Assembly: GCA_903844815.1 (NCBI GenBank) | Contig: CAIMVD010000088.1 | Coordinates: 1-64,000 of the forward strand | Length of the DNA: 64,000 nucleotides | Direction of reading: 5' to 3' | DNA from: an uncultured Bacteroidota bacterium | GTDB lineage: Bacteria; Bacteroidota; Bacteroidia; Bacteroidales; VadinHA17 | Shown here: piece by piece, positions 45,108 to 56,192 of the stretch | Position numbering within the stretch: the stretch's first letter is position 1 | Layout: every line of letters starts with the position of its first letter | The notes under the pieces: generated by a model | Seen by the model: only the letters and a program-made list of their open reading frames with translations | Told to the model about the DNA's origin: nothing | Databases searched by the model: none | Position numbers and translations under genes: made by a program

Positions 45108-45590
45108 ATGGAATATAAAATGGATGATTCTTTTCATAGCGTAACAGACCAGATAGTAACTTTTACTATCGACGAACTGATGTTGGCACTCCCGTTGTCT
45201 TCGGTGAAAAGGGTAATTCATGCGGTAGAAATTACCCGTTTGCCGAGAGCTCCTGAAATTGTTGCGGGTATTATCAATGTAAGGGGTCAGATTATTCCTG
45301 TTGTTGATATTCGCAAGCGGATTGGTCTCAGACGGCATGAATTATCCCCTTCTGATAATTTTATTATTGCAAATACTGGAACGCTTGATGTTGCAATTCT
45401 TGCGGATACGATTCAGGATGTAAGAACTCTGCTTCCGGGTCAGTTATCTGATGCAGGGGGGGCTTTACCTTTTGCTGAATTATTAAGCGGAGTGGCTAAG
45501 ACTGAAAATGGACTTATTCTTATCTATGATCTTAACAGGTTTCTGAGTCTGGAAGAGGAAAAGGAGCTGATAAGCGCTATGAGAACATGA
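45108..45590 (+). CDS. CheW-like coupling protein (first)
   Basis: A 160-residue single CheW domain from the ATG at 45108 (the ATG at 45120 is also possible). Motifs: QIVTFTIDELMLALPLSSVK, ITRLPRAPEIVAGIINVRGQ and IIPVVDIRKRIGL, typical of CheW, which links receptors to CheA. It begins the chemosensory operon and overlaps CheR by 4 bp. By position and neighbours it corresponds to WspB of the Pseudomonas Wsp system. Confidence 0.93.
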   Translation: MEYKMDDSFHSVTDQIVTFTIDELMLALPLSSVKRVIHAVEITRLPRAPEIVAGIINVRGQIIPVVDIRKRIGLRRHELSPSDNFIIANTGTLDVAILADTIQDVRTLLPGQLSDAGGALPFAELLSGVAKTENGLILIYDLNRFLSLEEEKELISAMRT

Positions 45591-47071
45591 AGCAAATGGA
45601 TCAAAATCTCACGGATGCTGAATTTCTAGCGGTTTGCAGGGTAATTGAAACCATAACAGGTTTGAATTTTCCTGAAGAGAGAAGAACTATGATGGTAAAG
45701 GGTCTTTCCCATGCTGCTGTAGATTTTGGCTTTTACAAACTTAGCGATTTCATCGGGTGGCTCAGAGTAACCATTTTGAATAAAGCGCAAATTGAAAAAC
45801 TTGCCTCTTTTCTGACAGTTTCTGAGACTTACTTCTGGCGCGAGCCAAAAGTATTTGACGCACTTACCAGCAGTATAATCCCCGCGCTTGTTAATCTGAA
45901 AAGGGGTAGCGTCAGGAAAATCAGGATATGGAGTGTTGGATGCTCCACAGGGGAAGAACCTTATTCACTTGCAATAGCGCTCCATAGAACTATTGCTGAT
46001 ATTGCCGAGTGGGATATTAAGGTTATTGCTACCGACATTAATCCAAAAGTTATTGAAAAGGCTAAAGCCGGCCAGTATGGCCAATGGTCATTTCGCAATT
46101 CTCCCTTATGGCTTAAAAGCAGGTACTTTAATCTCCATAGTGAAAAAAAATATGAGATTATTCCGGAGATAAAAGCACTTGTCTCATTTTCTGTATTGAA
46201 TCTTGCCTCTTTGCCTTTCCGTGGAATTCAGAATGGGATGGATATCATTTTCTGCAGGAATGTACTGATGTATTTAACAGATGGCTGGATAAAAATGATT
46301 TCTGACAGTCTGTTTAAGACATTATCTTATAATGGATGGTTTGTGGTTTCCTCATGTGAACTTGGTTCACGTCTGTTCTCCCAATATGAAACGGTTCAAT
46401 TCCCGGGTGCTATTCTATACAGGAAGAGTAAAAAGGAAATCGCTTCCATCAGGGATGATTCCCATGGTGAACACCTGACTAAAATCATTAAAGACAGCCA
46501 GTCATTCAGGAAGGTTGGATCTGAATCAGGCGGGAATCCTGATCTTAAATCAGAATTCAGACCCTCAAAATCTGGAATAACAATTGATCAGTTGCGTATA
46601 TCAGAACCTACTTCACTGCCTGAGAAAACTGATAATAAGCCGGAGATGAAGAGTGAGGGCGATCTGCTTCAGGAAAGCAGGACTATGATTCTGTCATTGG
46701 CCGACAGGGGCGAACTGGAAGAAGCTCTTTCAAAATGTAATTCTGCAATAGAATCATTCAAACTTGCTGCCGATTTATACCTGCTAAGGGCTTCAATTCA
46801 GCTGGAACTTAATAAAAGTACTGATGCCATAACATCACTGAGGCAGGCTATCTATCTAAGTCCTGACCATATTATGGGGCATTTTGCATTGGGTCGTTTA
46901 TTCATGGGATTAGGTAACACCAAAAACACCAAAAGGTATTTCAGTAATGTATTGGGAATGACAGAGAAATATGGGAAAGACGATATTATACCCGAATCTG
47001 AAGGACTATCGGTGATGGAAATAAGAGATATTGCCAATAAAAATTTACAGCTAGTGATTAACAATGAATAA
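45587..47071 (+). CDS. CheR methyltransferase with TPR domain
   Basis: A 494-residue protein. The N-terminal helical CheR_N domain and the SAM-dependent methyltransferase domain (residues ~1-275) include SVGCSTGEEPYSLAIAL (SAM binding), VIATDINPKVIEKAKAGQY and DIIFCRNVLMYL. After a linker (~280-355), TPR-like helices (~360-465: LADRGELEEALSKCNSAI, LYLLRASIQLELNKSTDAI, HFALGRLFMGLGNTKNTKRY) follow. CheR methylates glutamates on the receptor. TPR-bearing CheR is typical of WspC and Frz-type systems, where TPRs guide localisation. It overlaps both neighbours. Confidence 0.93.
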   Translation: MKQMDQNLTDAEFLAVCRVIETITGLNFPEERRTMMVKGLSHAAVDFGFYKLSDFIGWLRVTILNKAQIEKLASFLTVSETYFWREPKVFDALTSSIIPALVNLKRGSVRKIRIWSVGCSTGEEPYSLAIALHRTIADIAEWDIKVIATDINPKVIEKAKAGQYGQWSFRNSPLWLKSRYFNLHSEKKYEIIPEIKALVSFSVLNLASLPFRGIQNGMDIIFCRNVLMYLTDGWIKMISDSLFKTLSYNGWFVVSSCELGSRLFSQYETVQFPGAILYRKSKKEIASIRDDSHGEHLTKIIKDSQSFRKVGSESGGNPDLKSEFRPSKSGITIDQLRISEPTSLPEKTDNKPEMKSEGDLLQESRTMILSLADRGELEEALSKCNSAIESFKLAADLYLLRASIQLELNKSTDAITSLRQAIYLSPDHIMGHFALGRLFMGLGNTKNTKRYFSNVLGMTEKYGKDDIIPESEGLSVMEIRDIANKNLQLVINNE

Positions 47072-47579
47072 GGAAGCCTCTATTATCCTGAAGAACCGCG
47101 CTATTGCAATGGCCAAGAATCCTGATCAGGAAACAGGATTCTCAAAATCCACCGGAGTTATAGCATTCACTCTTGCTGCCGAGACCTACTGTGTTGAATC
47201 GGCATTTGTAAAAGAGGTTTATCCGCTGAAAGAATATACATCCCTTCCGGGAGTTCCGGATTATATTCTTGGCCTTATAAATGTTCGTGGCCAGATTCTC
47301 CCGGTTGTAAATCCTAAGAAATTCTTCAATCTTCCTGAAAGAGGATTGGGAGAGTTGAATAAGGTAATAATCCTTTTTCACAATAAAATGGAATTTGGCA
47401 TACTGGCCGATTTCGTGGAAGGATCATTGTTTTTATCCCCGGAAGAAATTATGGACGTACCCGCCGGAGTTACTTCTATAGGGGAAAAATACCTGAAAGG
47501 AGTTACAATGGATAACCTGATTGTGCTTGACGCAGAAGCCTTGTTGAATGATGAAGGTATAATTGTCGATGACAAGTAG
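47064..47579 (+). CDS. CheW-like coupling protein (second)
   Basis: A 171-residue CheW domain with an N-terminal extension of ~30 residues: GVIAFTLAAETYCVESAFVK, LPGVPDYILGLINVRGQILP, VVNPKKFF. It overlaps CheR by 8 bp. A second CheW after CheR-TPR is the WspD position. Two different CheW proteins may bind receptor and kinase in separate arrays or alter stoichiometry. Confidence 0.92.
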   Translation: MNKEASIILKNRAIAMAKNPDQETGFSKSTGVIAFTLAAETYCVESAFVKEVYPLKEYTSLPGVPDYILGLINVRGQILPVVNPKKFFNLPERGLGELNKVIILFHNKMEFGILADFVEGSLFLSPEEIMDVPAGVTSIGEKYLKGVTMDNLIVLDAEALLNDEGIIVDDK

Positions 47580-47643
47580 GTTAATATAAAGAGTAAATAG
47601 TTAATTAAGAATAATTGTAAAAACGTTTTAAAATGGAAAGGCT

Positions 47644-49353
47644 ATGTTAAAGAATATGAAAATTTCCGAACGCCTGATATTGGGTTTTAGTGTAATGTTT
47701 GTCCTGATTATTGTATCTCTCATTGCCGGAATTTCTTCTACAAACAAGTTAAATAATTTTGTTAACAAAGAAATAAGGGTCAGCAGTCAACGCAAGGAGC
47801 TGGCAAACGAGATGATCGATAATGTAAGGGATGTTTCCCTTTCATTAGGGATAATGGTCTCCGACAAGCAAAAAGCAACTATTGACGATCAGGTGGCAAA
47901 GATTGGCAGGTACAGGCATGTTTACGATTCTACGTTTGATAAATATAGTACTCTGGTAGGGTTATCCGCCGCGCAAAAAAGTGAAAAGATTCTGGACATC
48001 GAAAGAATAAAGGTTTACCAGAGTGAATCCAGAGAACTTAATGACAGAGTAATAAAGCTTATTGTGGAGGGTAATTACAAGGAAGCAAACGATCTCCTGA
48101 TCGACAATGCTATTCCAAAAGTAAACATTTGGTTAAAGGCAATATATGAGATTTTGTCATTCGAGAATCTTGAATTCAAGCAGGTTGCTGATGAATCAGC
48201 ACGGATAGTTATGTCAACACGATTTATGTTCATATTACTTGGCGCCATTTCAATGGTTCTGGCCATAGCCATTGCCCTCATAATTACAAGAAGTATTTCA
48301 GGTCCTCTGAGGGTCATAACATCTATTATTGAAACCAGGGATGGTTCAGTCGATATAACGGAATATCAGAAAGGCGTAAGTGAGTTTAATGTTATGATCC
48401 GGTCATTCCAGCAGGAGATACTGGACCGCTTGAAGAAGGAGAATGAGATTAATAACTACAGGGACCAGCTTGAGGTACTTGTTACCGCCCGAACATCCGC
48501 TTTGACGAATGTCCTGGTACAGATCAAGGAGACTGTCAATGTTCTGGCGTCAGCGTCTTCACAGATTCTGGCCGCAACAGTTCAGGTAGCTGCCGGAACT
48601 GCTGAAACTGCCACAGCAATAACCGAAACTTCGACTACAGTTGAAGAAGTACAGCAGGCAACAAAGCAATCTGCCCAGAAAGCAAGAGTTGTCGCCGAAA
48701 GCGCACAGTTGGTTTCAAGAGTTTCTCTGGAAGGTCATAAAGCGGTTGAAGAAACAGTAAAAGGGATGAATCGTATTCGCGAGCAAATGGATTCAATCGC
48801 CCAGACTATTGTAAGGCTTAGTGAGCAGAGTCAGTCGATAGGTGGTATTATAGCTTCAGTAACAGATATTGCCGACCAGTCAAATCTTCTTTCAGTAAAT
48901 GCCGCCATTGAGGCAGCAAAAGCAGGGGAACAGGGAAAAGGATTTGCTGTGGTAGCCCAGGAGATTAAAAATCTTGCCGGACAGTCGAAACAGGCAACCC
49001 TTCAGGTAAGAAATATCCTGAACGATATCCAAAAGATAACAAATGCTGCTGTTATGGCAACTGAGCAGGGAACCAAGGCGGTTGAAGCAGGAGTAATACA
49101 GTCGGTGCAGGCAGGCAACGCTATTCGGATACTTTCGGAGAGCAGCAATGAAGCGGTTCTGGCAGCAACCCAGATTGTTGCATCGAGCCAGCAACAGGTT
49201 GTAGGCATGGATCAGATAAGTGTTGCAATGCAGAATATAAACCAGGCCGGTACTGAAACCGCAGTGAGTATGGAACAGTCAGAGAAGTCTGCAAAAAACC
49301 TGAATGATCTGGGTCAGAATCTTAAAGAGATGATAGAACAGTTCAAGATATAA
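47644..49353 (+). CDS. Methyl-accepting chemotaxis protein
   Basis: A 569-residue receptor: TM1 (~12-33), a periplasmic helical domain of ~160 residues (4HB_MCP type), TM2 (~195-217), a weak HAMP-like segment, a coiled coil and the signalling hairpin (tip [20 protein letters not shown], then [16 protein letters not shown]). The C-terminus MIEQFKI lacks a CheR-binding pentapeptide. Its ligand is unknown; surface contact is the signal for WspA, but that should not be assumed here. It is the only MCP in the window and is in the middle of the operon, fitting WspA by content though not by order. Confidence 0.93.
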
Positions 49354-49390
49354 TGAATTGCTTAGGCGTGAATAGAAAATCAAATAATTG

Positions 49391-51679
49391 ATGCAGACAA
49401 AAGAGGAAGAATTTCTGAAGCGTATTCAGGCAACGTTCCGGTATGAAGCCGAAGAGCATCTGCGTGCATTTTCCTCGGGGCTGATTGAATTGGAGAAACC
49501 GGGGATAAGGGAAAACCCTGCCGAAATTATCGAAATTATGTTTCGTGAAATTCACAGTCTCAAAGGTGCAGCCCGGTCGGTTGACAACAGGGATGTTGAA
49601 ACTCTGTGCCAGCCACTTGAAAATGTCTTCTCTGCAATGAAGCGAAAAGAAATCAACTTTTCATCTTCGTTCCTTGGCCACTTTTATAAAGCCTCTGATC
49701 TTCTGGCAAAAATTATTACTTCGGAAGAAATCAACCAAAGCCCTTCAGAGCGTAAAAGCACAAGGGAACTGATCCAGCAATTGAAAGAGCTGGCCACGGG
49801 CAAATCAATTGAGATTACTTCCCCTGAACTGGTCCGATTAGTCCCGAATCCTGAAGTGACACCTCCTGAAGCCACTATTCCTGTTGCGGTTGAAATTCCT
49901 GTGTCCCATACTGAAAGTCCGGCAACAAAAGAATCGATAAGGATCAGGGTCTCTAAACTTGACCCACTGCTTCTGCAGGCTGAAGAGATGGTTCAGGCTA
50001 AAATGGCTATTATTCAGCGTGCTGATGAACTTGCTCAGATAAACAGTGAGATTACTGAATGGATACATGATTCATTCAAATGGAAAGGCAACAGGTTTAA
50101 AGCATCTCCTGAAATGTGGAATGAGTGGATGGAAGATAATGGCCTTCGTCTGAATAAGCTTGAAAGAAAAATTGATGCCATTGCCGCTCTCACTCGCCGG
50201 GATCAATTCAATCTCATGAGGATGGTCGATAATCATCTCGATGCCATGAAACAGATAATTATGCTTCCTGTTTCATCGCTTGTTGAGATCTTTCCGGTTA
50301 TGGTCAGGAAAATTACCCGGGAACAAAAAAAGGAAATCGATTTTGTAATTACGGGTACAGAACTTGAAATTGATAAACGTATTCTTGAGGAACTTAAGGA
50401 TCCTCTCATTCATCTCCTTCGTAACTGCATAGACCACGGAATAGGCAAACCAGAGGAACGTATTAAACAAAATAAACCACCACAGGGTAAAATAACACTC
50501 GAATTTGCAGCCAGGGAGAACGGTCAGGTTGAGATAATTCTGAGCGATGACGGAAGAGGAATTGATACTGTAATGCTGATGAAAGCGGCTTCCAAAGCAG
50601 GAATTTCCCTCGACGATTCAAACGAAAAACCCAATCGCAGGGAAGTACTTAACCTGATCTTTAAGTCGGGAGTTTCAACCAGTTCAATTATTACTGATAT
50701 TTCAGGTAATGGTTTGGGAATGTCAATTGTTCATGAAAAAGTTATAAAACTGAACGGAAGGATTTCTGTTGACTCAGAGGATGGGAAAGGTACTTCATTT
50801 CATATTCTTCTTCCTATGACTCTTGCTACTTTCAGAGGTGTTGCTGTCAGAGTAAAGGAATTCTCTTTCATTCTTCCGACAATGAATGTCGAAAGGGTAA
50901 TCATGTTAAAGGAGGAAGATATAAGGACAATTGAAAACCACTATACGATCAGAATTGACAACCAGACCATTTCATTGGTTGACATGGGGGAAGTCCTGGG
51001 GTTGCCTGCTGCCATCAATTCATACGTTGAATCATCAGATAAAGGCAATGAGACGCACAATTCAATTTGTGTTGCGGTACTGACTAATAAAGAGCGTCTT
51101 ATGGGATTTAGGGTTGATGAAATACTCGAGGAACAGCAGGTCTTCGTTAAGGGACTTGGAAAATTGCTGAAGAGGGTAAGAAATATCTCGGGGGCAACCA
51201 TACTTGGTTCGGGTAAGGTTGTTCCGGTGCTTAATGTCTCCGACCTGATTAAATCGGCCCTTAGGGTTAAATCAGGCGGTAAGGTTCATTCGCCTGAAAA
51301 GCACACTGCCGAGAAGGCAGGAAGGATACTTGTTGTCGAAGATTCAATCACTTCGCGTACAATGCTTAAGAACGTTCTTGAAGCCGCCGGGTATATTGTA
51401 GTTACAGCCTTTGACGGGCTTGACGGATTTGCTAAAGCCAGGGAAAGTGAATTTGATCTTATAATGTCAGATGTTGATATGCCAAGGGCAAACGGTTTCG
51501 AGTTTATTACAAAAATACGGGCAGATAAGAAACTGAAGGAAGTGCCGGCAATTCTGCTGACAGCACTGGGATCTCATGAAGACCGCGAACGTGGTATTGA
51601 AGCCGGTGCTGATGCATATATAGTTAAAAGCAGTTTCGATCAGGGAAATCTGCTTGATATAATCCGAAAACTTATTTAA
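49391..51679 (+). CDS. CheA histidine kinase with C-terminal receiver
   Basis: A 762-residue CheA-REC hybrid (start at ATG 49391). HPt domain ~1-105 with phospho-His55 in FREIHSLKGA; an unusual helical middle (~180-300) without a clear P2 domain; HATPase (~320-470: LLRNCIDHGIG, LSDDGRGID, SGNGLGMSIV); CheW-like P5 domain (~475-610: TLATFRGVAVRV, LMGFRVDEILEEQQVFVKGL); receiver (~640-760, Asp in DLIMSDVDMPRANGF). This is the WspE/FrzE layout. The C-terminal receiver may act as a phosphate sink or receive phosphate for adaptation. Confidence 0.93.
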   Translation: MQTKEEEFLKRIQATFRYEAEEHLRAFSSGLIELEKPGIRENPAEIIEIMFREIHSLKGAARSVDNRDVETLCQPLENVFSAMKRKEINFSSSFLGHFYKASDLLAKIITSEEINQSPSERKSTRELIQQLKELATGKSIEITSPELVRLVPNPEVTPPEATIPVAVEIPVSHTESPATKESIRIRVSKLDPLLLQAEEMVQAKMAIIQRADELAQINSEITEWIHDSFKWKGNRFKASPEMWNEWMEDNGLRLNKLERKIDAIAALTRRDQFNLMRMVDNHLDAMKQIIMLPVSSLVEIFPVMVRKITREQKKEIDFVITGTELEIDKRILEELKDPLIHLLRNCIDHGIGKPEERIKQNKPPQGKITLEFAARENGQVEIILSDDGRGIDTVMLMKAASKAGISLDDSNEKPNRREVLNLIFKSGVSTSSIITDISGNGLGMSIVHEKVIKLNGRISVDSEDGKGTSFHILLPMTLATFRGVAVRVKEFSFILPTMNVERVIMLKEEDIRTIENHYTIRIDNQTISLVDMGEVLGLPAAINSYVESSDKGNETHNSICVAVLTNKERLMGFRVDEILEEQQVFVKGLGKLLKRVRNISGATILGSGKVVPVLNVSDLIKSALRVKSGGKVHSPEKHTAEKAGRILVVEDSITSRTMLKNVLEAAGYIVVTAFDGLDGFAKARESEFDLIMSDVDMPRANGFEFITKIRADKKLKEVPAILLTALGSHEDRERGIEAGADAYIVKSSFDQGNLLDIIRKLI

Positions 51680-51697
51680 AAAGATATACTTGTTTCT

Positions 51698-52744
51698 ATG
51701 ATTAATGTTCTGATAGTTGATGACTCTAAGGTGGTACAGGAGTTATTAAAGTATATTTTTGATTCTGATCCGGATATCCGGATTATTGGAATCGCCGGAT
51801 CGGGAATCGAAGCTATTCAGATGACACGGGAGCTGAGACCGGATGTCATTACAATGGACCTGTATATGCCCGGGATGAATGGATTTGAAGCTATTCGTGT
51901 TATAATGGAAACATGTCCTACTCCGATTGTAATTGTCAGTGGCAGTCTTAATACGAGTGATGTTTCAAATTCACTGAGCTTGCTCGAAGATGGCGCCCTG
52001 TCGGTAGTATTGCGTCCGCCAGGAATAAATCATGCTGATCATGTGACATCAAGCCAGGAAATGTTGCGCACCGTTAAGCTTATGTCGGAGATTAAAGTGG
52101 TCAAGCTTTTCCCGAGACAGCGCAGGGTGCGCATTCCGTCAGAGATTAAGTCGGTTGAGGACTTCAAGCCCCATTCTGAAATTGGATTGGTTGCAATTGG
52201 CGCCTCAACAGGAGGTCCAGTTGCATTACAGAAAATATTATCGAGCCTTAATAGTAATATTCCCGTACCGGTTCTTATAGTACAGCATATTGCATCAGGT
52301 TTTATTCAGGGATTTGTTGACTGGCTTTCAACAACTTCAAAAATTCCATTGAAGATTGCCTCGGATAACGAAACCCTAAAACCCGGTATAGGCTATGTTG
52401 CCCCGGATGGTTTTCATATGGGAGTTCAGAAAGGACTTAGAATATTCCTTTCAACCCTTCCTCAGGAAAATGGATTGCGTCCCTCAGTCGATTTCCTCTT
52501 TAGGTCCGTTGCAAAAACGGTCGGGAAGAATTCAATAGGGGTGTTGCTAACAGGAATGGGTAAGGATGGCGCTGCTGAATTAAAAGCTATGAGAGATAGT
52601 GGTGCAATAACCATCGCCCAGGACAGTGAAAGCTCAGTTGTTTTCGGTATGCCGGGAGAAGCTATCCGAATAGGAGGCGTCGATCATATTTTATCAATAG
52701 ATAAGATAGGTGATACCCTGAATGAACTTGTAAAAAAGATTTGA
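51698..52744 (+). CDS. CheB receptor methylesterase
   Basis: A 348-residue protein with a receiver (~1-125; Asp54 in [14 protein letters not shown]) and a CheB methylesterase domain (~165-347): [14 protein letters not shown] (catalytic Ser), [11 protein letters not shown] (His) and [15 protein letters not shown] (Asp). It removes methyl groups from the receptor after phosphorylation by CheA. It corresponds to WspF. The gene is 19 bp after CheA and 11 bp before the hybrid kinase. Confidence 0.95.
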
Positions 52745-52754
52745 TTTTGAAAAA

Positions 52755-54914
52755 ATGAGTTCACAGGAAAGAAAAATGATTCTGGTTGTCGAGGACAGCC
52801 CCACTCAGGCAGAAAAAATAAGGTATCTGCTCGAGAGTTATGATTATGATGTGACAATTAAGCAAAATGGCAGAAAGGCATTGGAGTGGCTGTCGGCAAA
52901 TAAACCTTCACTTGTCATCTCTGATATTATAATGCCTGAGATAAACGGTTTTCAACTGTGTGAAAAGATAAAAACGGATAAAAGAACGGAGGATATTCCT
53001 GTTATTCTGCTTACATCGCTTTCTCATCCCGATGAAGTAATCGACGGTCTTTCATGCGGTGCTGATAGTTTTATTACCAAACCCTACGATAAAGAATACC
53101 TTATCTCAAGCATTCAGAAATTTCTTTCGGAACCTGTTGATTCGGGTATTGAAAAAGATAATCTGGGAATTGAGATTTTCTACGGTGGAATAAAGAGAGT
53201 GATTCATATCCGACCGCAAAAGGTGGTTAATTTCCTCCTGAATATATATCAGGGAACCATCCAGCGTAACAGTGAACTCATTCATACCCAGAACGAACTG
53301 CAACTGTTGAACGAAAAACTGGAGGACCTCGTTGAGGAGAGAACAAAGAAACTGAGAGAAAGCGAAAAAAAGATCCTCGCCTTTAATGCTGAACTTGAGC
53401 AAAGGATACTCGAACGAACCGCACAGCTTGAGGCAGCAAATAAAGCCAAGAGTGAGTTCCTGGCCAATATGAGCCATGAAATCCGTACTCCCATGAATGC
53501 AGTTCTGGGTTATGCAGAACTCCTGGGTTTGATGATTGAGGATACAACTCAGAAGGATTATATCGAATCAATTAAGATTAGCGGGAGAAGCCTTCTGACA
53601 CTGATTAACGATATTCTCGACCTCTCCAAAATTGAGGCAGGAAAGCTTGATCTGCATTTAGATCTGATCAATTCTGTCTCATTCTTTGCCGAATTTGAAC
53701 GTATTTTTTCTTTAAGACTGTCTGAAAAAGGGCTGAAATTTATTCTTGATATATCGCCGGATACTCCTTTAGGTATCCGTATCGATGACTCAAGATTGCG
53801 ACAGATCATTCTTAACCTGATTGGCAATGCTATAAAATTTACAAACAATGGAACGATAACTCTCAAAGTTTCTATTGAAAATAACCAAACCATCACTCAT
53901 CCAAGCGGTAAAACTGAGGATATTCTTGACCTGATTATTGATGTCATCGATACAGGGATCGGGATCTCACATGAAATGCAGGAAGAGGTTTTTAATCCTT
54001 TTGTACAGGTTCATAATCAGAATGCAAAAAAGTATGGGGGTACAGGCCTTGGTTTATCAATTACCCAGCGGCTTATTCAACTCATGAACGGGACGATCTC
54101 ACTTGCTTCGCATTTGAATGAAGGCAGCAGTTTCAGGGTTGTGATTCCCGGGATTTCCTGCCTTAGTGAATTTGCCGACAGATCAAACGAGTATTTTATC
54201 GATCCGAAAGATATGAAGTTTGACAAGGCTATAATAATTGTTGCAGATGACGTTGAAAACAACAGGAGATATCTTGTTGAAGCTCTCAGGAAATCAGATT
54301 TTGAGATTCTCGAAGCCGAAGACGGTCATGCGGCTCTCGCTCTCGCAAAAAAAATAGTACCCGATCTGATTATTACTGATCTTGCCATGCCTGGCCTTAA
54401 CGGATTCGAATTACTGGATAAATTGAAATCCGACGATTCTCTCAAGCACATACCTGTGATAGCCTATTCTGCAATGGTTATGAATGACCAGAAAAATCGC
54501 ATTCATGAACATGAGTTTGCGGGATTACTTATTAAACCGCTTGAGATAAAAAGGTTATATCTGGAACTGATGAAAATCCTGCCTTATAAATCATTGGTGG
54601 GACCAGGTGAACAACAATCTCTTTCCGAAATAAACATAGTTGAGGAGATAATTGATCTTCAGGGGCTGATGGATTCTCTTAATAGCACCTTCAATACAAT
54701 CTGGAAGACCTTTGAAATTACCCAGCCATTAAATGATGTTACAGATTTTGGAAACAAGATCGCTGAGCTGGGAAGAAAACACAATGCATCATTATTAGTC
54801 GGATATGGAGAAGAATTGGTTAGTGCTTCGAATAGCTTCAATATAGAGTCAATTCTGAAGCATATCAGGAAATACCCCCAGATGATTGAACTCCTGGCTG
54901 ATTCAAAAAGCTAA
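52755..54914 (+). CDS. Hybrid histidine kinase REC-HK-REC
   Basis: A 719-residue soluble hybrid kinase: receiver 1 (~7-122; Asp in [14 protein letters not shown]), a coiled coil (~170-235), HisKA ([20 protein letters not shown]), HATPase ([34 protein letters not shown]), receiver 2 (~495-610; Asp in [17 protein letters not shown]) and a helical tail (~625-715) resembling a degenerate HPt-like domain. Receiver 1 could take phosphate from the CheA next door and so connect the chemosensory array to a second phosphorelay. It occupies the place where a Wsp operon would encode its output WspR. Confidence 0.92.
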
Positions 54915-54998
54915 TTAAATATCTGATAATGTTTGATTTAAACCTTAAGGAGATATTGCGATTGTTAAAAAACCTTTTTTTTATAACTTTTTTGTTTG

Positions 54999-56192
54999 AT
55001 GAATCAAAATGATATTACTTCTCCGCCTTCAATATTAATTGTAGATGATAATGTTAATAATCTTCAGGTTCTCGGAGGATTTCTGAAGAGCGAAGGCATG
55101 CAGATTGAGTTTGCCATAAATGGAATCTCAGCGCTGAACTGGCTCGACAAGCGATTGTTTGACCTTATTTTGATTGACATTATGATGCCAGGGATGGATG
55201 GTTTTGATGTGTGTTCCAGAATAAAACAGAATCCTGCTACCTCTGAAATTCCGATTATTTTTATTACGGCTAAAACTGATTCGGAAAGCGTTATCAGAGG
55301 ATTTGAACTTGGAGCTGTTGACTATATCACAAAACCTTTCATTCATAGTGAATTACTGGCAAGGGTCAGGACGCAGTTGAATATCAGGAAATCGCAGGAA
55401 CAGAATCAGGCTTATCTGAAAGAAATTGAAAGGAGGAACAGGGATATAAACGCAAGTATTGATTATGCAAAGCATATTCAGGATGCAGTAATGAGCAGAT
55501 CGCATAATTACTTACAGTACCTCCAGGAACATTTCTCAATTTATCTTCCAAAAGATATCCTTAGCGGTGATTTTTTCTGGGTATATAAAGTTGAATCAAA
55601 GATCATTATTGCCGTCATGGATTGTACGGGTCATGGTGTTCCCGGTGCGCTTATGAGCATACTTGGGATTGCATTGCTTAATGAAACGGTCCTGCACGAT
55701 CATATTATACAGCCAAATATAATTCTTGAGAGTCTTCGTTCAAAAATCATCATGGCCCTGGCCCAAAGAACGGGAAATGATCATGTCAAGGATGGAATTG
55801 AAGGCTCGGTAATCTGTTTTGATACTGAAACGAAAAAGCTTCAGTACTCGGGGGCCTTTAATCCGCTGATCATCATGTGTAATGGCGAAATGACAGAAAT
55901 AAAGGCAGACAGGTTTCCGATAGGTTATCATGATACTTATGAGAGTTTTACTCTCCATGAATTATTTATTGACAGGGATGAAACCATCTACCTCTTCTCC
56001 GATGGTATTATTGATCAGTTTGGTGGTCTTAAGGATAAGCGATTTATGCTTGAACACCTTAAAGAAATAATTTATCTGAACCATAACGAGAGTATGGAAA
56101 GACAGAAGGAATTGCTGTTAAGTGAACTCGATGACTGGAAAGGGGATCTGGATCAGACAGATGATATATTGATCCTGGGGATAAGGTTTTAG
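54999..56192 (+). CDS. Receiver-SpoIIE phosphatase (RsbU-type response regulator)
   Basis: A 397-residue protein from the ATG at 54999: receiver (~10-128; Asp in LILIDIMMPGMDGFDV), a short helical linker (SIDYAKHIQDAVMSR) and a PP2C-like SpoIIE domain (~165-397) with metal-binding aspartates in GDFFWVYKV, AVMDCTGHGVPGALMS, LFSDGIIDQFGG and DDILILGI. Such proteins dephosphorylate anti-sigma-factor antagonists when their receiver is phosphorylated. No STAS-domain antagonist or anti-sigma kinase is in this window. It is the last gene of the chemosensory run and its stop codon directly abuts the opposing gene. Confidence 0.92.
   Translation: MNQNDITSPPSILIVDDNVNNLQVLGGFLKSEGMQIEFAINGISALNWLDKRLFDLILIDIMMPGMDGFDVCSRIKQNPATSEIPIIFITAKTDSESVIRGFELGAVDYITKPFIHSELLARVRTQLNIRKSQEQNQAYLKEIERRNRDINASIDYAKHIQDAVMSRSHNYLQYLQEHFSIYLPKDILSGDFFWVYKVESKIIIAVMDCTGHGVPGALMSILGIALLNETVLHDHIIQPNIILESLRSKIIMALAQRTGNDHVKDGIEGSVICFDTETKKLQYSGAFNPLIIMCNGEMTEIKADRFPIGYHDTYESFTLHELFIDRDETIYLFSDGIIDQFGGLKDKRFMLEHLKEIIYLNHNESMERQKELLLSELDDWKGDLDQTDDILILGIRF

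Follow-up and report, generated by a model that had tools for sequence, protein, structure and literature searches.

The window analysed here, 64,000 nucleotides long, comprises positions 1 to 64,000 of contig CAIMVD010000088.1 (C88 below) from an uncultured Bacteroidota bacterium (order Bacteroidales, VadinHA17; GenBank assembly GCA_903844815.1), and it carries a Wsp-like chemosensory gene run. Eight genes lie in a tight run, all on the + strand, and code in order for CheW, CheR-TPR, a second CheW, a methyl-accepting chemotaxis protein (MCP), CheA-REC, CheB, a REC-HisKA-HATPase-REC hybrid kinase that we call HYB, and REC-SpoIIE, a receiver joined to a PP2C phosphatase domain. Our comparison of these proteins with their relatives suggests that a chemotaxis-type array appears to be plugged into an older switch made of a kinase and a phosphatase, with a single fused adapter domain as the connection. 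The lineage gives no sign of cyclic di-GMP (c-di-GMP), the second messenger for whose control these arrays are best known. Coordinates and Pfam matches confirmed the eight-gene inventory and its place as given in a preliminary description of this DNA:

45108..45590, + strand: CheW, a WspB/D-like coupling protein (Pfam CheW, 2.9e-28), with its ATG at 45108
45587..47071, + strand: CheR methyltransferase with C-terminal TPR, WspC-like (Pfam CheR, 5.8e-44; TPR_8, 2.3e-6)
47064..47579, + strand: second CheW (Pfam CheW, 5.3e-27)
47644..49353, + strand: MCP with a 4-helix-bundle sensor domain (4HB_MCP_1, 1.7e-9; MCPsignal, 4.4e-32)
49388..51679, + strand: CheA-REC, WspE-like (Pfam Hpt, HATPase_c, CheW and REC)
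51698..52744, + strand: CheB, WspF-like (Pfam CheB_methylest, 6.2e-61)
52755..53420, + strand: HYB residues 1-222, REC1 and linker, the che-type adapter (from REC1 identity)
53421..54911, + strand: HYB residues 223-719, the HYBct part with HisKA-HATPase, REC2 and tail (from kinase identity, tree and AU test)
54999..56192, + strand: REC-SpoIIE, with a SiaA-type PP2C domain at residues 132-398 of the TTG-start frame (SpoIIE, 1.7e-20)

The gaps between successive genes are -4, -8, 64, 34, 18, 10 and 84 bases (minus marks an overlap), the last being counted from the ATG at 54999 and not from the TTG at 54996. All Pfam domains of the eight proteins exceed their cut-offs, TPR_8 in CheR barely (27.8 vs 25.7 bits). 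In HYB two Response_reg domains, HisKA and HATPase_c are matched and followed by a tail of about 110 residues, and no Pfam match to a P2 domain was found in CheA-REC. The residues that we take to be phospho-acceptors are present throughout: H56 and D695 in CheA, D54 in CheB, D57, H241 and D542 in HYB, and D61 in the receiver of REC-SpoIIE. The MCP gene sits between the second CheW and CheA, whereas in the Pseudomonas Wsp gene order the MCP comes first, and no array protein had a Wsp-named NCBIfam model among the matches listed. No second chemosensory cluster was found in the genome, in which the CheW family occurs at three places, all of them here and one inside CheA. A scan for predicted sites gave 46 promoter-like sites where 30 were expected and 5 terminator-like sites where 9 were expected, and was judged unusable.

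The set of relatives comprised 60 genomes, namely 36 of the genus (own included) and 24 others of the order, one per family. A like CheA is found in five of the 36 genus genomes (own, G009, G022, G015 and G023, the last with its cluster split across two contigs) and in two of the 24 others (G042 and G037), and some of the remaining genomes hold CheAs of another type. The CheA of the window is 64% identical to that of G009, 59% to that of G022 and 52% to that of G015. In all five genus arrays HYB follows CheB directly, the four other copies being 61-69% identical to that of the window, and REC-SpoIIE lies downstream of HYB; it adjoins HYB in the window and is preceded by one extra receiver gene in the other four. 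The preliminary description had proposed a search for the same gene order in relatives and had regarded the hybrid kinase and the REC-PP2C protein as the likely outputs of a Wsp-like array, and the 5/5 recurrence of HYB with a downstream REC-SpoIIE supports this view of the outputs.

REC-SpoIIE could still be a mere neighbour, functionally unlinked to the array. The 84-base gap before it is the longest in the run, and two of the seven same-order arrays differ: that of G042 has three REC1-kinases and a SpoIIE protein without a receiver, and that of G037 has a REC1-kinase and no SpoIIE match in the 20 kb fetched, nor genome-wide at E<=1e-8. However, REC-SpoIIE stays downstream of HYB in every genus array despite a CheA identity of only 52-64%, and four of these five arrays keep it despite the intervening receiver gene. 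We regard an unlinked neighbour as very improbable.

In a sample of the phylum, 113 of 395 genomes (own included) have some CheA at E<=1e-60. Loci were taken from the best 14 of the 112 non-own CheA genomes, and 13 of these have CheA-REC, that of G152 (L180) being excluded for a CheA without REC; because only the best-matching genomes were fetched, the resulting picture applies to CheA-REC types. A REC1 protein lies directly 3' of CheB in 13/13 loci, the copies of G432 and G243 being only 29-30% identical, and it carries a kinase in 12 of them. Within the stretch fetched, none of the 13 has a SpoIIE resembling the domain of the window. In these loci a REC-kinase is thus the usual output, and REC-SpoIIE is the addition. 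A CheA search in named genomes gave a single locus; its match was confined to the receiver part (query residues 641-763), and it was set aside.

The two parts of HYB differ in their nearest relatives. REC1 is 41-62% identical to 19 of the 21 che-linked proteins outside the five HYBs, the other two being the 29-30% copies already mentioned. The kinase is 43-73% identical to 18 other members of a genus-level family, HYBct, vs 23-38% to other che-linked kinases. Seventeen of these 18 have no che genes nearby, and the remaining one (L050_11) sits at the distal end of the region that holds the G009 array; the pair of REC1 and linker is absent from all 18, with linker-like stretches of 26-30 residues matching in two. 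In the kinase tree, which omits L167_6 (no kinase) and L171_6 (matched kinase stretch under the length filter), the five genus HYBs are nested inside the HYBct clade with a support of 100/99.6. A single clade of all che-linked kinases is rejected by the approximately unbiased (AU) test with a p-AU of 3.9e-5, the groups having been defined once the identity table was known. In the receiver tree, 24 of 26 che-linked REC1s, that of the window included, form one clade (97/92) with G432 and G243 outside, and REC2 of the window falls into a separate clade with the REC2s of other HYBct kinases (100/100). By these identities and trees, HYB is a chimera of a che-linked REC1 and linker joined to an HYBct kinase. 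There is roughly an even chance that this reflects the fusion of the array's output port, the receiver and linker after CheB, to a kinase that belonged to another, older signalling module.

The tail of HYB gave only chance Pfam matches, and a built-in Hpt at this position was judged unlikely, also because a nine-row alignment has no invariant His. Single-sequence AlphaFold models reached a predicted local distance difference test (pLDDT) of 51 for the tail and 36 for REC-SpoIIE, too poor for a structure search.

HYBct kinases were found at 25 places in 11 genomes; the family is expanded in the own genome, with 14 places (one a fragment). A fragment at C117:23774 of the own genome and a weak match in G051 were left unused. 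In G003, G011 and G020 an HYBct kinase heads a run that contains REC-SpoIIE, with one more like receiver gene between them (the REC-SpoIIE frame of G003 is short, at 264 residues). In G025, in G030 and on own contig C194 the gene beside HYBct codes for another kinase that carries this kind of receiver, and on own contigs C117 and C217 REC-SpoIIE lies less than 2 kb from an HYBct kinase. Because HYBct kinases and this receiver type are often together where there is no array, the pairing supports HYB as the kinase of REC-SpoIIE. Alternatively, HYB and REC-SpoIIE might be parallel response regulators, each phosphorylated by CheA, with no step from kinase to phosphatase. The CheA of the Wsp system, WspE, phosphorylates WspR directly, and the receiver of REC-SpoIIE is intact, including D61. 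Yet kinases of the HYB family also have REC-SpoIIE, or a gene with a like receiver, close by in places that lack che genes, so that the pairing is independent of CheA, and in the receiver tree the SpoIIE receiver falls among those che-free ones, apart from REC1. A parallel arrangement is in our view unlikely, and HYB is retained as the proposed kinase.

By sequence, the phosphatase of the window is SiaA-type, not RsbU-type. Its SpoIIE domain alone matches the NCBIfam SiaA model NF038263 at 1e-44 and the RssB response-regulator model at 5.8e-9; the SiaA match covers only the phosphatase part of the model and stays under the whole-protein cut-off (153 vs 700 bits). The genome holds an RsbU-type REC-SpoIIE on contig C19, beside a STAS gene, which served for comparison: here the SiaA model gives 6.5e-5, and the best model is SpoIIE at 3.1e-15. 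A search of the PDB returned SiaA (6k4e) for the window domain at 3e-26, with the next match at 1.7e-8, and for the C19 domain Rv1364c first at 1.4e-15, with SiaA last of seven at 2.4e-6. The two domains share 20% identity, and the catalytic motifs of the window domain are in place. The C19 gene belongs to a separate STAS/HATPase_c_2 set (L067:9577-18581), which also contains a large Cache-HAMP-GAF kinase. In G052 (C292, L234:1362-4697) a SiaA-type SpoIIE is fused to a two-component-regulator propeller and a Y_Y_Y domain and adjoins SiaC.

In whole-genome profile searches, GGDEF (PF00990) was matched in none of the 60 genomes, and the same search gave matches in 8 of 14 control genomes. No GG[DE]EF motif was present in the frames of the array loci, the phylum loci or the che-free HYBct loci that were fetched. 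Loss of a GGDEF regulator in the genome of the window only was rejected on these grounds: with no GGDEF match in the own genome or its 59 relatives, the lack of WspR extends beyond this genome. The view that the system has no GGDEF domain is thereby upheld, with no sign of a route to c-di-GMP; a GGDEF regulator under the same operon in close relatives, the finding that would have spoken against it, was searched for and did not turn up. The preliminary description had also held that the place of WspR was taken by the new parts. This is not supported, since a REC-kinase already follows CheB in 12/13 phylum loci, and there is no indication that these parts displaced a GGDEF regulator.

SiaC genes lie at seven places of the own genome, none of them on the array contig, and SpoIIE genes at 13; the richest relative has 48 SpoIIE and 20 SiaC. 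The phospho-site motif, N-T or N-S, is present in all seven own SiaC proteins (four T, three S). It was located by aligning one of them to the PDB structure of SiaC and the rest by the motif of the Pseudomonas aeruginosa T68 peptide, which was taken from PMC7647112. One SiaC gene, on contig C109, adjoins a gene whose product passes the cut-off of the SiaB family kinase model NF038262 (1.2e-41) and has Hpt and STAS genes within about 5 kb; the cluster (L071:2663-8213) comprises genes for Hpt, STAS, a 1028-residue ATP-binding cassette (ABC) transporter protein, SiaC and the SiaB family kinase. We consider it a candidate meeting point of the phosphorelay and the SiaC switch. Another own SiaC is part of a 302-residue SiaB-SiaC fusion (DUF6272 and SiaC; C197, L227:4289-5197). 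Other members of the genus likewise have SiaC matches within open frames of about 300-350 residues.

Across the 24 same-order families, a strong SiaA-type SpoIIE is present in 10/10 genomes with SiaC vs 0/14 without (Fisher test, 5.1e-7), strong being defined as E<=1e-50 and all positives reaching 1.6e-72 or better. Match counts of SpoIIE and SiaC rise together, with rho of 0.95 over the 24 genomes, 0.71 within the ten and 0.60 over the 36 of the genus, where 35 genomes have both and G028 has SiaC only. The genes are also neighbours in places: SpoIIE is directly next to SiaC in G052 (25 bases apart on one strand) and in G042 (11 bases apart and convergent, together with a SiaB-family gene), and in G051 it lies 1.3 kb from SiaC. 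Also in G051 (C662:2306-3465), two SiaC matches directly adjoin an HATPase_c_2 match, which may tie both kinds of switch together.

In the reading closest to the preliminary description, REC-SpoIIE would act like RsbU, RsbP or HsbR and dephosphorylate a STAS antagonist, so that an RsbW-type HATPase frees a sigma factor or a similar target. Stand-alone STAS genes occur in the own genome, as do three HATPase_c_2 genes that pass the cut-off, and HATPase_c_2, which served as the control, also tracks SiaA-type SpoIIE (8/10 vs 3/14, p 0.011 at E<=1e-18; p 0.036 at 1e-12 and 0.21 at 1e-8). Moreover, a hybrid kinase, RsbK, drives the REC-PP2C protein RsbY in this way in Bacillus cereus (PMC4574943). 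On the other hand, the window domain is SiaA-type with its 20% identity to the RsbU-type domain of the same genome, and the STAS/HATPase_c_2 set on C19 already has an RsbU-type REC-SpoIIE adjoining its STAS gene. G049 and G053 have 11 SpoIIE matches each and only weak HATPase_c_2 matches. Four matches to the RsbW profile in the array and phylum loci were weak (1.9e-5 to 5e-4) and lay in long frames (423-649 residues, two of which code for kinases); we did not score them as RsbW. The proposal to look for co-occurring STAS and anti-sigma genes led to no match to STAS, HATPase_c_2 or SiaC on C88. Of the partner switching proposed earlier, the phosphatase output is thus kept, and the sigma-factor target has become doubtful because of the SiaA-type domain and the C19 set with a phosphatase of its own. 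We think it improbable that a STAS antagonist is the substrate; a sigma factor as target was considered and ranked below SiaC, which is the better-supported partner.

Judged from sequence, the array likely acts on a SiaB/SiaC phosphoprotein switch that lacks the cyclase SiaD, and not on a sigma factor. The chimeric nature of HYB and the SiaA type of the phosphatase are our best-supported claims; like the genes and their architectures, the presence of SiaB and SiaC and the co-occurrence of SiaC with SiaA-type phosphatases, they come from sequence comparison. Every phosphotransfer step, SiaC as substrate and the target of SiaC are proposals, which can be combined as follows. Receptor and CheW would control CheA, and phosphorylated CheA (H56) would phosphorylate REC1 of HYB (D57). 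This would change the autophosphorylation of HYB (H241), with REC2 acting as a brake or a side receiver. HYB, and perhaps also CheA directly, would then phosphorylate the receiver of REC-SpoIIE (D61), and the SiaA-type PP2C domain would dephosphorylate one or more SiaC-family proteins that are phosphorylated by SiaB-family kinases. Freed SiaC would then have to bind a target other than SiaD, as no GGDEF domain was found in the lineage. For the whole path from a non-motility array through HYB and REC-SpoIIE to the SiaC switch, we see the chances as evenly balanced. More tentatively, and at somewhat less than even probability, SiaB and SiaC may form a stand-alone, c-di-GMP-independent network with many SiaA-type phosphatases as inputs in the genus and in 10 of the 24 other families, which the array has joined by the fusion of REC1 and linker to one of its kinases.

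Several observations weigh against this path, in addition to the behaviour of the HATPase_c_2 control. The cut-off of E<=1e-50 was chosen after the list had been seen; at E<=1e-8 the SiaC-less G047 counts as well (2e-9), and p becomes 5.6e-6. The Fisher tests take the families to be independent and make no correction for their phylogeny within the order. The window, the six other same-order array loci and the 13 phylum loci yielded no frame resembling SiaB, SiaC or STAS, and with SiaC and SpoIIE genes scattered elsewhere no specific pair of SiaC and phosphatase can be named. On eight own contigs with HYBct (C280, C221, C5, C50, C241, C87, C6 and C72), no such receiver gene lies near the kinase within the sequence fetched (a short piece in the case of C6). 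Phosphatase exchange among the array genomes is likely, because their SpoIIE receivers are mixed with che-free ones in the tree: those of the window and G009 and those of G022 and G023 are nearest to different che-free copies, and that of G015 has no resolved position. In Rhodospirillum centenum, transfer from phosphorylated CheA3 to the isolated REC1 of CheS3 was not seen in two buffers according to the supplement legends (PMC3868531).

Upstream of the first CheW, a gene for a LuxR/NarL-like regulator and a CheY-like receiver gene are found in G022, G023 and some phylum loci (for example L051:3778-5072 and L165:11818-13040). The window and G009 have an unrelated gene of 300 residues in place of this pair.

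How does the gene run compare with known systems? The Wsp system of Pseudomonas (R-system) consists of WspABCDEF and WspR. An MCP, two CheW, CheR-TPR, CheA-REC and CheB are all present here as in Wsp; the position of the MCP differs and the REC-GGDEF output WspR is missing. The closest published output type is that of the Wsp H-system of Burkholderia cenocepacia, in which a REC-histidine kinase, WspH, replaces WspR (PMC8552884), a match by architecture. That paper discusses a connection to a cyclase still to be identified, whereas the genome of the window is without any GGDEF match. Clusters with CheR-TPR, of the alternative cellular functions (ACF) class, share the fusion of CheR to TPR and the multidomain response regulators, here HYB and REC-SpoIIE; about 40% of their regulators carry a kinase module, and REC-phosphatases were also reported in 2012 (PMC3447774). 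In contrast, no SiaA-type phosphatase, SiaC link or such fusion is described in the consulted parts of that paper. A CheA with a C-terminal REC and no P2 is a layout seen in ACF and a few other classes (PMC10782961).

Two further systems resemble the proposed middle steps. In the Che3 system of R. centenum, CheA3 acts on the first receiver of a second kinase, CheS3, which acts on another receiver, and the authors conclude that CheA3 phosphorylates REC1 of CheS3, a precedent for the step proposed here (PMC3868531). CheS3, however, is a kinase of the type REC-REC-PAS-HWE, and CheY3, the receiver at the end of the chain, lacks an output domain. The HYB architecture fits such a CheA3-CheS3 cascade. 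In B. cereus, a hybrid kinase with a C-terminal receiver, RsbK, is paired with a REC-PP2C phosphatase, RsbY, and the C-terminal receiver acts as a brake (PMC4574943). Unlike HYB, RsbK is a membrane sensor kinase with its own methyltransferase, RsbM, and the pathway acts on RsbV, RsbW and sigma-B. The RsbU/RsbV/RsbW switch itself differs in the type of its phosphatase domain and by the STAS and HATPase_c_2 partners that have no match on C88.

With the SiaABCD system of P. aeruginosa the window shares the SiaA-type PP2C domain, and its genome shares the SiaB and SiaC families and a T or S at the SiaC phospho-site motif (PMC7647112, PMC8457831). Unlike in SiaABCD, a receiver replaces the sensor part of SiaA, SiaB and SiaC are encoded on other contigs and form no operon with the phosphatase, and no SiaD or GGDEF protein was found. 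How far SiaC is phosphorylated at T68 in P. aeruginosa depends on SiaA and SiaB (PMC7647112), and DUF1987 (SiaC) proteins have been suggested to commonly modulate adjacent proteins (PMC8457831).

As a bare claim, a Wsp-like operon without a cyclase is already known, because the outputs of CheR-TPR clusters (PMC3447774) and the Wsp H-system (PMC8552884) have been published. In the open-licence literature (titles and starts of abstracts), we found no chemosensory cluster with a SiaA-type phosphatase or SiaC and no function for SiaC (DUF1987) in Bacteroidetes or Bacteroidota among the matches listed. Within the same bounds, neither a che adapter fused to the kinase of a SpoIIE module nor an array linked to a SiaA/SiaC switch in a lineage without GGDEF was found. 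The chimera and SiaA-type claims yield a short list of assays with purified proteins, and it becomes testable what SiaC-family phosphoproteins do where a GGDEF cyclase is absent. Set beside the known systems, the window suggests how a receptor array may change what it controls: the receiver-linker port is kept, and the kinase behind it is swapped.

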